Below the pieces are notes generated by a model. It saw only the letters and a list, made by a program, of their open reading frames with translations. It was not told the origin of the DNA and searched no databases. The position numbers and the translations under genes are program-made. From Spinacia oleracea (taxonomy: Eukaryota; Streptophyta; Magnoliopsida; Caryophyllales; Amaranthaceae): DNA of 64,000 bases. The stretch is from the NCBI RefSeq assembly GCF_020520425.1, contig NC_079491.1, positions 1,550,001 to 1,614,000 on the forward strand. The letters are read 5' to 3'. Shown one piece after another: positions 38,411 through 50,215 of this stretch (position 1 is its first letter; every line of letters begins with the position of its first letter).

Positions 38411-39333
38411 TAATAACAATAATAAGTTGAACTGAAAAATAAGCCCTGAAACTGAAATTAAGCCAAAAAAACAGTGCCTTAGTATAGTATAGAGTTGGGA
38501 GACATGTAAGAATGGTGAAAGGAGTTTTCAGATAAAAACAGTTATAAAGTGAACTGCATATTTTTCTTTTTACTTGTTTATCAGATTTTCTGCAAATCAA
38601 GTCACAGGATTTTCTGAAAATGTCAATGTTATACTTGTTCAGACTTTGATCCCCTCTGAAATTATTGATCTAGGTTATGCCTTCTTCACAACCAGAAGCT
38701 AACACAGGCAACCAGCCAGAATTTTCAGCAGGCCCGGATTCTCAGTCAAGTTCTGCTACAAATGGTTGGGGTGATCTTGACAGTAATGCTACTCACACTG
38801 AGTGTGGTCCATCTAGTGGCCCGCCTCCCGGTAAAGCAAGCTGCAACGGATGGGCCGATGAACCCGCAGCACAAGAACTAAACGGATGGGCCAATGAACC
38901 CGCAGCACAAGAATTAAACGGATGGGCCGATGAACCCACAGCACAAGAATTAAACGGATGGGCTAGTGCTGCTGATCCAGGCCCATCCATGCGGCCCGCA
39001 GACGGTCCTACTACAATTGTTGCCTCAGAACCCGTCTCTTCAGCTCCATCAGCTCCTCCCTTACCCGTGGACACCGTGGTTGACGGGCCTATCCATTATC
39101 CAGCTGTCGATGTGGGGCCCGTTGACGTGTCTGTCACCGGTACCAAAGCAACAGGTAAAAACGACGAGTCTTGTTGTGTGATATGTTGGGATGGCCCGGT
39201 AGAGGGGGCTTGCATTCCTTGTGGTCATATGGCTGGATGTATGTCTTGTTTATCAGAGATCAAATCCAAGAAAGGGGTTTGCCCGGTTTGTCGGGCCAAG
39301 ATTGACCAGGTTATCAGATTGTATGCTGTTTGA
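31423..39333 (+). CDS. XBAT35-like ankyrin-repeat RING E3 ubiquitin ligase, copy a; 9 exons, 474 aa
   Basis: Exons: 31423-31524, 31754-31868, 32971-33051, 33158-33246, 33331-33431, 33575-33662, 34914-35016, 35563-35648, 38674-39333; frame is kept at every join. Ankyrin repeats fill exons 2-4 (GKTPLIVASMDPRLYVVAKT; GTPLHHAAKRGLDHTVKLLL; CQTPLDLARTKGYCNVV). A conserved XBAT34/35 middle follows (WVVVVPCGLPN, LKLELVVYSSAQ). The large last exon has a Pro/Ser/Ala-rich linker, a 13-residue NGWADEP-type repeat (about residues 313-354) and a C-terminal C3HC4 RING (CVICWDG, CIPCGHMAGCMSC, CPVC; about 422-466). The RING recruits E2 enzymes and the ankyrins bind substrate. Arabidopsis XBAT35 (At3g23280) acts in ethylene responses and cell-death control, by similarity only. 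MGQKIS at the start fits N-myristoylation. Intron 8 (3 kb) holds a Stowaway-like and a Tourist-like MITE. Confidence 0.88.
32028..32317. mobile_element. Possible miniature element in XBAT35-like copy a intron 2
   Basis: The left end is CAATGGCGAATCTAGAG and the right end is CTCCGCCCCTG, which are loosely inverse complements. The interior is AT-rich. It resembles the element at 60659-61190. No target duplication is clear. The rest of intron 2 is unremarkable. Confidence 0.35.
36851..37145. mobile_element. Stowaway-like MITE, XBAT35-like copy a intron 8
   Basis: The left end CTCCCTCCGTTCCTAAATAA and the right end TTATTTAGGAACGGAAGAG are inverted repeats flanked by TA on both sides, as expected of Tc1/mariner-type Stowaway elements. 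It is non-coding. Confidence 0.8.
38184..38478. mobile_element. Tourist-like MITE with TTA target duplication and TAA microsatellite, intron 8
   Basis: The left end GCCCTGTTCTTTTC and the right end AACAGTGCC are imperfect inverted repeats. TTA lies on both sides (38181-38183 and 38479-38481). The interior contains a TAA-type microsatellite (about 38373-38407) and GAGCTGAGCTGAGCT. It ends about 200 bp before the RING exon. Confidence 0.65.
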
Positions 39334-40070: not shown

Positions 40071-41201
40071 ATTTAATTTTACACCTATCTACGTACTACT
40101 CGGCTTAATTACCCTAAAACAAAATTTAATTTCAATTCCTAACAGAATCTAATGGAAAATCACTATTATCCTCTCAAAAAAATTAAATAAATTTCTTTTG
40201 ACAGCAGATAAAGGATAGTTTTTTATTTTTTTACCAAAGAAAATTAAGGATAGTTTTATAGAAACACTAATACTTTATACTTTTAAAGCCCTAAACCTTC
40301 CTAAACTCTACCAGTTACCGTTTGTTTACTTGTGAAAAGGTTTACTTGTGAAAAGGTTTACCTTTGAAATATATTTCCTCTGTTCTCATTCACACATGCT
40401 CCTTTAACTTTCTTTTGTGATTTATGCTTAAGAAAAAACATAGTCGTGTGGGTCTTATTAGATTCGTCTCAATAAATAATTTTTAAATAATATCAAATTT
40501 TTATAATTTTTTCTTATCTATAATGAAAGATATTAATGTTTGAAATCGTGCATTGGCAAACGTGCCTAAATAATTGTGTCATTTAAAAAAGAGAACTGAG
40601 GAAATAGTACAAAGGGGAAGTGGAATATAATACTTATTTTTGTTTTGTTGTGTTTCAATATATTTTTTAATTAATATAGTATATGAGAAATTAGAAACCT
40701 TAATAGTCAAAAATAGAAACATGACTATAATTTTGGGACGCCCGATATTTTGGGACGAAGGGAGTACGTACTACTCGGCTTAATTGCCCTTAAAACAAAC
40801 TTTAATTTCCTAAGATAATCTAATAGAAAATCATTATATATTATCCTCTCAAAAAAATTAAAAAAATAAATAATACTCCCTCCATCCCAAAATATAGTAA
40901 TAATAATGTGGTTCGATATTTAATGTTTGTACGTACTAGAGTAATAATAATTGAGAAAAGAATAGTTTCTTTTGACAGCAGAAAAGGATAGTTTTTTTTT
41001 TTTTACGAAGGAAATTAAAGATAGTTTTATAGAAACAATAATACTTCTAAACTTCTAAAGCCCTAAACCTTCCTAAACTCTACCAGGTACCGTTTGTTTA
41101 CTTGTGAAAATGTATACTTATCTTTTTATAAATATACTCAAATTGCTTTGCTTAAATATAAATTTCTTTGTAATCACGTACTATCAAAAGAAATCATGAC
41201 A

Positions 41202-41479
41202 CTCCCTCCGTTTCTTTTTGTTCTTTACGTTTGGCCTTTATTAACGTCTAATTACTGTATATTAAGATTTCTCTGTTTTTTTATTTAAACAAGAAAATTT
41301 GCTTTTATTTATAATGTTTACACTTTTATCAAAAATCTGATATTTGAAAAATGAAAAAAAATTAATGTCTCATTAGAATTTTGATAGAATATTAAAGCAT
41401 TTATTAATATAAAAGGAAATGTAAAAAACATTTTAAAACACTCAAAAATAAAAACGTAAAAAACAAAGAGAAGGGAGAG
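41202..41479. mobile_element. Stowaway-like MITE
   Basis: The left end CTCCCTCCGTTTCTTTTTGT and the right end ACAAAGAGAAGGGAGAG are inverted repeats, and the inner sequence ACGTTT/AAACGT matches too. The same family as 60721-61075. It separates copies 2 and 3 of the upstream module. Confidence 0.75.
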
Positions 41480-41653
41480 TGTTTTTTTTTTTTTAACAGG
41501 AGAAAAGGATAGTTTTTTTTTTTTTTTTTTTACGAGAGAAAATTAAGGATAGTTTTATAGAAACATAAATACTTCTAAAGCCCTAAACCTTCCTAAACTC
41601 TACTAGTTACCGTTTGTTTACTTGTTATTTGTTAAAAGGTTTACTTATCTTTT

Positions 41654-41663
41654 TATAAATAAA
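41654..41663 (+). promoter_or_regulatory. Putative TATA box of the PLATZ-like gene
   Basis: TATAAATAAA lies about 115 bp before the ATG at 41777. A matching TATAAATA is present in the upstream module copy at about 41127. No transcript start is known. Confidence 0.4.
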
Positions 41664-41776
41664 TACTCACATTACTCGGCTTAATTCAAAGAGTAATCAC
41701 ATACTAGAAAATAATCCAAAGAGTAATCACATACTAGGAAAAAAAGAAATCATTCATAAACACAAACAAACAATTT

Positions 41777-43204
41777 ATGATGGAAACAAACCCAGAAAAA
41801 TCAATAATGGAAGATGGTGAAAAGAAACTCAAAGATCTTCCACAAGTGTTACAAGACATGATCAATGCGAATTTCGATTCGACATGGGGTGCTGGATCAA
41901 AAGATGATCATCCCTATTTTTGTGTAGATTGTAAAGGAAGAAGTTTGAGCGAGTTAGAAATCAAAGAAACTTGTAAACCGAAACAACATCGTGTTTTAAG
42001 GGCAATGAAGTGTTCAAAAGTGTATGGTTTTCAGGTAAAAGAATTGGATTTGATTAATGATGTAGTTGACATAAATGGGGTTTGTAGGTATTCAATTAAC
42101 CAGAATTATATTTGCTATCCAAAAAGGAGAACAACAAACAAACCTAGTTATAATAACCCTAATAAGGGTTGTGCTTATTGTATGGATTGTTTGAAGATTG
42201 GGGATGAGAAAGGATTTGTGTTTTGTTCGATTATGTGTAAGCTTCTTTGTTCGAATGATCAACTTCAACATTATCAGAATAATCAAGTTGGTTGTTCGAA
42301 TGATCGACGACTGCAACAATATCAGAATAATCAACTAGGGTTGCAGTCTTTCTCGACGAAGAACCGCAACAACAATAGCAAGAACAAGATGAAGAAGAAT
42401 ACTCAACTAGGGTTGCAGTCTTTTTCGACGAACAAGAATACTCAACTAGGGTTGCAGTCTTCTTTTCCGACGAACAAGAGTACTCAACTAGGGTTGCAGT
42501 CTTCTTTTTCGACGAATAAGAATACTCAACTAGGGTTGCAGTCTTCTTTTTCGACGAACAAGAATACTCATCTAGGGTTGCAGTCTTCTTTTTCGACGAA
42601 CAAGAATACTCATCTAGGGTTGCATTCTTCTTTTTCGACGAACAAGAATACTCAACTAGGGTTGCAGTCTTCTATTTCGACGAACAAGAATACTCAACTA
42701 GGGTTGCATTCTTCTTTTTCGACGAACAAGAACACTAAACTAGGGTTGCATTCTTCTTTTTCGACGAACAAGAACACTCAACTAGGGTTGCAGTCTTTTT
42801 CGACGAACACTCAACTAGGGTTGCAGTCTTTTTCGACGAACAAGAATACTCAACTAGGGTTGCGGTCTTTTTCGACGAAGAAGCGCAAGAAAAATAGCAA
42901 GAACAAGACGAAGAACAAGAAGAAGAGAAAGAAGGAGAATATAATTGGAGAGAAAGTTGTTAGTCTTGAGGGAAAAGGAAAAAGAAGCAGTTCTAAGTAT
43001 AAGATTCATCATAAGAAGAGGAAATTAGTGAGAGAGAATTATACGAAGAATAAGAAGCAGAATGTATCAAATGTTAACGATGGAAAAATTGAAGAAAAAA
43101 TTGAAGAAGAATTGGTTACAGAGATGGATCAGATAAACAATAGTTTGAGGAAGAGAAGTAGGAAAGGAGTTCATCGAATTCCGTGCAGAGCTCCTATGTT
43201 TTGA
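41777..43204 (+). CDS. Divergent PLATZ zinc-binding protein with 14-residue tandem repeats; single exon, 475 aa
   Basis: A single open frame. Residues about 19-160 match the plant PLATZ family: LPQVLQDMINANF (usual 'PPWLKPLL..FF'), HPYFCVDC, QHRVLRAMK, VVDINGVCRYSINQ (usual 'DITGVQTYIIN'), and the C-terminal finger CAYC...GFVFCSIMCKL. The C-x2-C pairs in the middle and at the C-terminus are kept, but the first C-x2-H pair and some CxxC/HxxH partners are absent. After about residue 184 come about 12 tandem units of NTQLGLQSSFSTNK. The tail is Lys-rich (NKKKRKKE, KKRKL), likely nuclear targeting. PLATZ proteins bind A/T-rich DNA and repress transcription, or affect Pol III. Usual members are 200-260 aa with several introns, so a retrocopy or a lineage-specific type is possible. 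Alternative ATGs: 41780, 41807. Confidence 0.75.
   Translation: MMETNPEKSIMEDGEKKLKDLPQVLQDMINANFDSTWGAGSKDDHPYFCVDCKGRSLSELEIKETCKPKQHRVLRAMKCSKVYGFQVKELDLINDVVDINGVCRYSINQNYICYPKRRTTNKPSYNNPNKGCAYCMDCLKIGDEKGFVFCSIMCKLLCSNDQLQHYQNNQVGCSNDRRLQQYQNNQLGLQSFSTKNRNNNSKNKMKKNTQLGLQSFSTNKNTQLGLQSSFPTNKSTQLGLQSSFSTNKNTQLGLQSSFSTNKNTHLGLQSSFSTNKNTHLGLHSSFSTNKNTQLGLQSSISTNKNTQLGLHSSFSTNKNTKLGLHSSFSTNKNTQLGLQSFSTNTQLGLQSFSTNKNTQLGLRSFSTKKRKKNSKNKTKNKKKRKKENIIGEKVVSLEGKGKRSSSKYKIHHKKRKLVRENYTKNKKQNVSNVNDGKIEEKIEEELVTEMDQINNSLRKRSRKGVHRIPCRAPMF
42325..42890 (+). repeat. 42-bp coding tandem repeat in the PLATZ-like gene
   Basis: Units centre on ACTAGGGTTGCAGTCTTCTT followed by TTTCGACGAACAAGAATACT. About 12 units encode N-T-Q-L-G-L-Q-S-S-F-S-T-N-K with few changes (Q/H/K at position 3, Q/H/R at 7). 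Some units are shorter by one Ser or by NK, and every length change is a multiple of three, which keeps the frame. Confidence 0.92.
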
Positions 43205-49200: not shown

Positions 49201-50215
49201 TATAAGTTATAACACTTCTTGTGCAGGATGCTGAACCTCGAAAAATTATTTCTCTTAGACGGTCTAAAATCAAGGCGCCAAGATTCGATCAACCAAGTCC
49301 TGCTCTGACAATTTTCGACAAGCAGACCAGTGAGTTGATAACTGCTTTCATAAACCCTGTTATACTGTTCTGTTTAGACTTAAAGTTTATCTCCAACTTC
49401 TACATACTGATGTTTGTTTTCGTGTTCAGAAAATCGATATAAATTCTCATCAATTACCTATGATGACAAGCAGCAACTTCGACGATTGTACAATGCTTGT
49501 AAAGGGATCTCTCAGGTATCACTTGGACTCACATGATTTGTGATTTTGTGTTATCTGCTTCATTTTCTGATCATAAGTTTGGTTTTCTTGTATGACATGA
49601 TTTGTGTTATCTGCTTCATTTTCTGATCATAAGCTGATCATAAGTTTGGTTTTCTTGTATGACATGATTTGTGTTATCTGCTTCATTTTCTGACCATAAG
49701 CTTCAATTTCTGATCTTTAAGTTTGGTTTTCTGTATGACATATGCAGGTTATGCCAGCCTCAGCACAGATGATGATTCCAGAAACTATAAACTCTTCACC
49801 ACTTCATACAACATCATCCCATATAACTAGTCCTGCATGGACAACACCCAGAATTTTCTCCCCTCCCATGACACCCAACAACAACAACAACAACAACATC
49901 TGGGTACACGAATCACCACGATCGAAACTGAATTCTGCACCTAATAGATCGCCTACAGCAGCAGCAGCGGTTTCTTCCCCTGTTCCCTCAGCTCCCCCAA
50001 TCAATACTACCAGCATTAATACACCAGTTTCTGATGAATCTGCAGATTTTACTGTGTGTGTAGTTTGCTGGGAAGCTCCGGTTGAAGGAGCGTGCATCCC
50101 GTGTGGGCACGTGTCTACGTGTATGTCTTGTTTGAAGAAGATTAAGGATAATAATGGGGTTTGCCCTGTTTGTAGAGGTGAGATTGATCAGGTTGTAAAA
50201 CTCTATGGTATTTAA
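46267..50215 (+). CDS. XBAT35-like ankyrin-repeat RING E3 ubiquitin ligase, copy b; 9 exons, 407 aa
   Basis: Exons: 46267-46368, 46574-46688, 47024-47104, 47987-48075, 48194-48291, 48694-48775, 49227-49329, 49430-49515, 49748-50215. Exons 1-4, 7 and 8 have exactly the lengths found in copy a. It contains ankyrin repeats (KTPLIVAAKDPGLYDMARTL; GTPLHYAAKEGLDNTVALLL; QTPLDVARKNGHNHVVRQI), the middle WVVVVPRSPHNPPRP, a shorter linker with Asn and Ala runs, and a C-terminal C3HC4 RING (CVVCWEAP, CIPCGHVSTCMSC, CPVC; about residues 356-398). The NGW repeat of copy a is absent. The exon 5 donor is uncertain: GTAATG at 48287 would break frame, while the weaker GTCTGT at 48292 keeps it. MGQKQS fits N-myristoylation. 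Introns hold Stowaway-like and hAT-type elements. Confidence 0.85.
46781..46870. mobile_element. Very short Stowaway-like MITE, copy b intron 2
   Basis: About 90 bp with inverted ends CCCTCTGTCTCATTTTACTT and AAGTAAAATGAGACGGAAGG, leaving only a few tens of bases of loop. Confidence 0.7.
47139..47965 (+). repeat. Tandem repeat of about 115 bp, three copies, in copy b intron 3, split by an hAT element
   Basis: TCAGTTTCTGACAGTCTGTT and TAGTACTAATCATCA recur three times (from about 47139, 47256 and 47906). The second copy is interrupted at ACTAATCA by the 47294-47839 element and resumes after it at 47840, so the repeat predates the insertion. Confidence 0.8.
47294..47839. mobile_element. GGGTCGGG-rich hAT-type element with perfect 8-bp TSD
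   Basis: It starts TAGACCTGGTCAAATTG and ends GATGATCATGTCTA. ACTAATCA flanks it exactly (47286-47293 and 47840-47847), fitting hAT. The interior is a roughly 235-bp tandem duplication: GGGCCATGTCTTAAAAATTC, CCCAAAACCCGCTAATTCGA and AACTATAATTGCAATTTTGA each occur twice. Non-coding, 546 bp. Confidence 0.88.
48324..48607. mobile_element. Stowaway-like MITE, copy b intron 5
   Basis: The left end is CTCTGTCCCAAATTACTTAC and the right end is GTAATTTGGGAGAGAGGGAG, inverted repeats, with TAC-type flanks. Non-coding. Confidence 0.65.

Follow-up and report, generated by a model that had tools for sequence, protein, structure and literature searches.

What is the long open reading frame at 41777-43204 of this stretch of spinach DNA, and how did a regular tandem repeat come to lie inside it? 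The frame was analysed within the window, the whole 64,000-nucleotide stretch (C5:1550001-1614000), and against the 894.2-Mb genome. It was stop-free on the + strand and encoded, in a single exon, 475 residues plus the stop; the stop-to-stop run around it was 488 codons, whereas in 1000 mononucleotide shuffles of these bases the longest run averaged 87 codons and never exceeded 178. When the protein was scanned with Pfam, PLATZ (PF04640) was matched at residues 91-156 with 26.8 bits, narrowly above the cut-off of 25, and nothing besides PLATZ was found. The E-value of this match was 8e-6 in the protein scan and 7e-4 in the whole-genome search. With this score and no intron in the frame, the original prediction of a divergent, PLATZ-derived, intronless gene held good. 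A B-box-like finger remnant (residues 20-79; 41834..42013, +), delimited by alignment with six intron-bearing and four other single-exon frames, was followed by a second finger, C-x2-C-x14-C-x3-C (residues 132-154; 42170..42238, +), by a direct duplication CSNDQLQHYQNNQVG / CSNDRRLQQYQNNQLG read from the translation (42248..42340, +), and immediately 3' of it by the repeat array (42326..42886, +). Beyond the array came a basic Lys-rich tail (42887..43096, +) that is, to judge from its composition, a putative nuclear-localisation signal, with 34 Lys or Arg among the last 105 residues of the protein, and a C-terminal motif RKRSRKGVHRIPCRAPMF (43148..43201, +), which corresponded, in the five-frame alignment, to the RKGIPHRAP/RSP end motif of PLATZ proteins.

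A putative TATA box, TATAAATAAATA (41654..41665, +), stood about 120 bases 5' of the ATG; it aligned with TATAAA in upstream promoter copy B and with TATAAG in the paralogue L002, described below. The promoter segment occurred as three tandem copies (40090-40361, 40765-41155 and 41487-41684) with 81-92% identity, and no coding remnants were noticed in the stretches translated across 40090-41684. A MITE-like element (window 41201-41472) lay between two of the promoter copies; of 2334 first-look candidates for further copies 40 were scored, and 38 of these matched it elsewhere in the genome at 72-84% over the best piece of each. The array gene was flanked by two RING-finger frames (38674-39333 and 49739-50215; zf-C3HC4_3, 47.9 and 50.4 bits). 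The frame at 38674-39333 contained its own in-frame 12-residue repeat NGWADEPAAQEL in about 3.3 copies, so that two adjacent genes both carry coding minisatellites.

When the genome was searched with the Pfam PLATZ model, 16 scored candidates gave 14 domain matches, which fell by position into 12 loci: seven intron-bearing (L009-L015) and five single-exon (the array gene, L002, L003, L004 and L005), the latter lying on two chromosomes. GT...AG introns were found in six of the seven intron-bearing loci, each of the six being joined from two exons (L014 was left out); the intron lay between the finger and the PLATZ domain in L009-L012 and within the domain in L013 and L015. In a tree of 11 rows (six intron-bearing, five single-exon) the two sets were separated with support of 100/99; calling the single-exon set a branch assumes that the root of this tree lies among the intron-bearing genes. 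L002, L003 and L005 scored 35.1-36.8 bits against the PLATZ model. The PLATZ domain and the second C-x2-C...C-x3-C finger of the array gene were common to all seven intron-bearing loci, and a RKG-P-RAP/RSP end motif was present in L009, L011, L013 and L015 (4/7 as fetched). These genes differed from it in having introns (the six joined) and no array in the stretches read. No array was present in L002, L003, L004 or L005 in the five-frame alignment either, in line with the original remark that such an array was not familiar from PLATZ proteins. L004 (C4:181879101-181879502, minus strand) was open through both fingers and had its first in-frame ATG at codon 75; the ATG of L005 aligned with a non-ATG codon in L004, for which a non-AUG start, a pseudogene or an assembly error are the alternatives. 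Three broken copies of the subfamily promoter and N-terminal part were observed at C3:37350814-37387647 (L006-L008, L042, L043), adjoining repeated copies of a frame that looked esterase-like by eye.

Zinc ligands were counted from the alignment of 11 frames (six intron-bearing, five single-exon). The first region of PLATZ proteins is reported as C-x2-H-x11-C-x2-C-x(4-5)-C-x2-C-x(3-7)-H-x2-H and the second as C-x2-C-x(10-11)-C-x3-C (both in the available text of PMC8974209). In the B-box-like finger of the array gene, C49, C52 and H71 (ligands 3, 4 and 8) were retained and ligands 1, 2, 5, 6 and 7 were absent, so that five of the eight ligands of the first-region motif were missing, as had been predicted for the N-terminal part. 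Ligands 3, 4 and 8 were present in 11/11 frames, and ligands 1, 5 and 6 in 6/6 intron-bearing and 0/5 single-exon frames. Ligand 2 was found in all six intron-bearing frames and in two of the five single-exon ones (His in L003 and L005), being absent from the array gene, L002 and L004; ligand 7 was found in 5/6 (one residue off in L012) and 2/5 (L004 and L005). The array gene, L002 and L003 were without ligand 7 and had two cysteines in common (C66 and C79 in the array gene). The ligand loss was therefore real but not private to the array gene, most of it being common to all five single-exon frames. The second region retained its four cysteines with a middle spacing of 14 (10 in L004 and L005), and the final finger, FCSIMCKL, was present as first described, as was the Lys-rich tail. 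A zf-B_box match below the cut-off (21.1 bits against 24.1) was obtained for L013, the sole match among three intron-bearing proteins scanned, and none for the four single-exon proteins scanned.

The lost ligands can be compared with MID1 B-box1, in which one zinc is reported to be held by C119, C122, C142 and C145, and in which breaking this site is reported to unfold the whole domain (available text of PMC4162623). By spacing, these four residues correspond to positions 1, 2, 5 and 6. By analogy, one zinc site would have been left with no more than one of its four ligands in every single-exon frame, and with none in the array gene. Since MID1 B-box1 unfolds on loss of the site, the remnant finger may fail to fold unless the loss is compensated.

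L002 (C5:11.266 Mb) was the closest relative of the array gene, on the same contig and 9.7 Mb away. The two were 70% identical over the N-terminal part, with a pairwise dS of 0.52 overall and 0.66 for the N-terminal part. They aligned end to end, with like ligand loss, the end motif and homologous flanks in common; L002 differed in having 253 codons including the stop and one repeat unit only. The homologous flanks were fragmentary, reaching about 430 bases 5' of the ATG in L002 and about 310 bases beyond the stop of the array gene. Because non-coding flanks match on both sides, the array gene and L002 are, by this comparison of sequence, the outcome of a duplication at the DNA level, and the array gene is not a retrocopy.

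The array comprised 13 LGL-centred units at the protein level (residues 184-370; consensus NTQLGLQSSFSTNK) and occupied 39% of the protein, close to the predicted share of nearly 40%. TRF reported a 42-base unit in 12.2 copies at 42391-42883 with 91% matches. About 12 tandem repeats of 14 residues had been anticipated; the array itself stood, with 13 units by protein, only eight of which were exactly 14 residues. Unit 1 had 24 codons, units 2 and 12 had 13, units 3-10 had 14, owing to an extra TCT, and unit 11 had 11; unit 13 ran on into the tail. Gln, Asn, Ser or Thr made up 57% of the array, a composition that suggests a flexible spacer.

The origin of the array was indicated by L002, which carried a single unit DIQLGLQPFATKK at the homologous place, before its Lys-rich tail. 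Over the 33 core bases, this unit had 5 differences from array unit 1 and 6 to 9 from each of the other units. Units 1 and 13 retained the ancestral Lys-rich continuation, and with it matched the single place in L002 at 78-79%. When a 21-base unit core was searched genome-wide with at most two mismatches, 13 occurrences were recovered, all inside the array. On the simplest reading, the array would have arisen by successive duplications of a pre-existing segment of which L002 has a single copy.

Other sources and identities for the array were tried and set aside. A protein search made to look for a transposable-element origin gave 28 matches besides the array gene among 66 scored candidates; 27 of these contained 4 to 9 TGA stops and one contained TAA. 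Four that were read (L045, L046, L049 and L050) were 42-base satellites of one other unit, of the TTTAGGGTGACAGTCGTCTGATGACGTCAACC type, and six pairs among the 28 lay at distances of 13.6-14.8 kb, a spacing that would suit LTR pairs. The satellite unit matched the array unit at 21/42 bases in the best rotation, and 202 of 5000 shuffles did equally well or better; this 4% is borderline by itself, and we judged the likeness to be chance because the unit of L002 at the homologous place offers a simpler source. A transposable-element source was rejected on the same ground. The 7-mer TAGGGTT was observed in 13/13 units (window 42336-42861), which hold 13 of its 19 occurrences on the + strand of the window, mostly 42 bases or roughly four helical turns apart. 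The Leu-Gly-Leu codons probably account for its recurrence; as a telo-box it was rejected, the unit of L002 being without TAGGGTT, and its flanks in the array presumably depart from the plant telomere-binding core. A 14-residue YadA-like head repeat (Hep_Hag) or solenoid was likewise rejected: phmmer against 3s6l gave E 0.022 for the whole protein and 0.0058 for the array, and arrays of permuted units reached best E-values of 0.02, 0.62 and 4.4e-13 against other chains, so that the 3s6l values are not evidence; in addition, Pfam found only PLATZ. AlphaFold run on the single sequence drew strands in the array with low confidence (mean pLDDT 42 for the whole protein, 51 for the array), and these predicted strands neither support nor exclude a flexible linker.

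Selection was estimated from comparison with L002. Outside the array, the N-terminal part had a dN/dS of 0.30 (95% bootstrap 0.19-0.50) and the C-terminal part one of 0.38 (0.16-0.98), pointing to constraint on the body of the protein. In a branch model with three taxa, 195 codons and L003 as outgroup, omega was 0.19 for the array gene (2dlnL 17.6, p 2.8e-5 vs 1), 0.34 for L003 (p 4.5e-5 vs 1) and 0.50 for L002 (p 0.43 vs 1, omega 1 not rejected). Forcing an equal omega on the array gene and L002 cost only 1.5 in 2dlnL, so a difference between them was not supported, and synonymous sites to L003 were near saturation, which weakens the split between branches. Purifying selection on the body of the array gene is visible in these alignments. 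The 11 distinct changes counted within the array divided into 8 non-synonymous and 3 synonymous, where neutrality would predict 3.2 : 1; the array thus appears to be without sign of constraint, a count of 11 giving little power. Selection on the protein, as first proposed, was accordingly borne out for the gene body and not for the array. The frame-preserving length changes cited in its favour were real but weak evidence, amounting to two or three independent events. Absence of stops also says little here, as two other frames were open across the array for 72 and 115 codons.

The array might still be a selected module, its LGL/F motifs binding a partner such as a co-repressor multivalently or driving condensation, with repeat number tuning the strength. 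The L, G and L codons were identical in 13/13 units and the frame was kept, the composition rich in Gln, Asn, Ser and Thr would suit such a role, and the QLGLQ segment occurs in L002 too. However, the changes between units fit neutrality, the units differed by a mean of only 6.4% in pairwise comparison (33-base core), so that their identity may reflect recency, and Pfam found PLATZ alone in the protein. We consider such a module rather unlikely. Any role for the array is hypothetical, as it shows no sign of constraint.

It is distinctly unlikely that the array gene is a decaying duplicate, still open by chance, in which the array spread since the protein is unimportant. The low Pfam score, the loss of zinc ligands, the neutral array and the three broken N-terminal copies of this subfamily on C3 would fit decay. 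Against it, omega on the array-gene branch rejected neutrality, the end motif and second finger were intact across a split of dS about 0.5, and ligands 1, 5 and 6 were gone from all five single-exon frames, so that no recent private decay is indicated.

That the array gene began as a retrocopy of a spliced PLATZ mRNA in which the repeats later multiplied, as first predicted, is highly improbable: the introns of the intron-bearing genes were absent without trace from the aligned frames, as a retrocopy would have it, but all five branch members on two chromosomes were intronless and L002 shares promoter and 3' flank DNA, so that the array gene has neither a private intron loss nor flanks unrelated to those of its closest relative. 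Retroposition may possibly have founded the whole single-exon branch; since all its members are intronless, any such event predates the radiation of the branch.

The explanation that we prefer, and hold to be quite probable on these comparisons, is that the array gene is a protein-coding member of a PLATZ-derived single-exon branch with a recently expanded flexible linker, and a probable nuclear regulator by prediction. In this branch one zinc site of the N-terminal B-box-like finger would have lost its ligands wholly or for the most part, while the second finger, the PLATZ-type end motif and the basic tail were kept. A duplication at the DNA level, about dS 0.5 ago, would then have produced the array gene and L002. 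In the array-gene lineage, a 13-codon segment immediately 5' of the Lys-rich tail would have been amplified in tandem by replication slippage or unequal exchange, probably with the 24-codon unit arising first, then 13-codon units, then the TCT insertion that gave 14-codon units. Retention of the second finger, the basic tail and the RKG...P.RAP-type end motif suggests that the protein is most likely a nuclear DNA- or protein-binding regulator, in which the Gln/Asn/Ser/Thr-rich array would link finger to basic tail with its length nearly free to vary. Points against this explanation are the array without sign of constraint, the possible failure of the remnant finger to fold, the PF04640 score near the cut-off, the compatibility of the L002 branch with omega 1, and L004 without the expected ATG.

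Among published relatives, group IV of the Ginkgo PLATZ genes (GbPLATZ1 and GbPLATZ5; PMC9262033) is similarly described as single-exon and divergent, with an altered N-terminal finger, and as weakly expressed in ginkgo. It differs in that the change reported there affects the last conserved cysteine alone, which is replaced by glycine, and the available text mentions no array; the likeness is one of description. Alfalfa MsPLATZ1 (PMC9916490) also has one exon, but is placed in group I, where every other gene has four exons, and again no array is mentioned in the available text. The usual PLATZ gene is multi-exon, although this is not strictly defining, whereas the array gene has a single exon. 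PLATZ proteins are also described as binding A/T-rich DNA in a zinc-dependent way. The available parts of two tomato surveys disagree, giving PLATZ introns as 0-4 or no gene without an intron; in those of the surveys in buckwheat, soybean, apple (two), eucalyptus, birch and poplar, every gene described has introns or several exons. No PLATZ repeat array was found in the available text of the plant PLATZ surveys consulted in the open-licence literature. Surveys that apply PF04640 at E 1e-5 (e.g., PMC10384190, in its available part) could retain or miss the array gene, whose two E-values lie on either side of this threshold.

The array gene is thus an unusual variant within the known PLATZ family and not a new kind of system. 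A bolder reading, which we regard as a long shot, is that the branch runs on half a B-box with one zinc site, re-ligated by C66 and C79 in the subgroup that shares these cysteines, and that the array is a multiplied ancestral QLGLQ-type docking segment, multivalent and variable in length, that varies between accessions and tunes strength. If this were true, repeat number would set the strength of the regulator and would vary between spinach accessions. The finding draws attention to a PLATZ-derived branch of single-exon genes in whose B-box-like finger one zinc site is degraded. Within it, the array gene with 13 units and L002 with one form a before-and-after pair for a coding minisatellite arising in a plant regulator gene, and the array is a candidate length-polymorphic marker.
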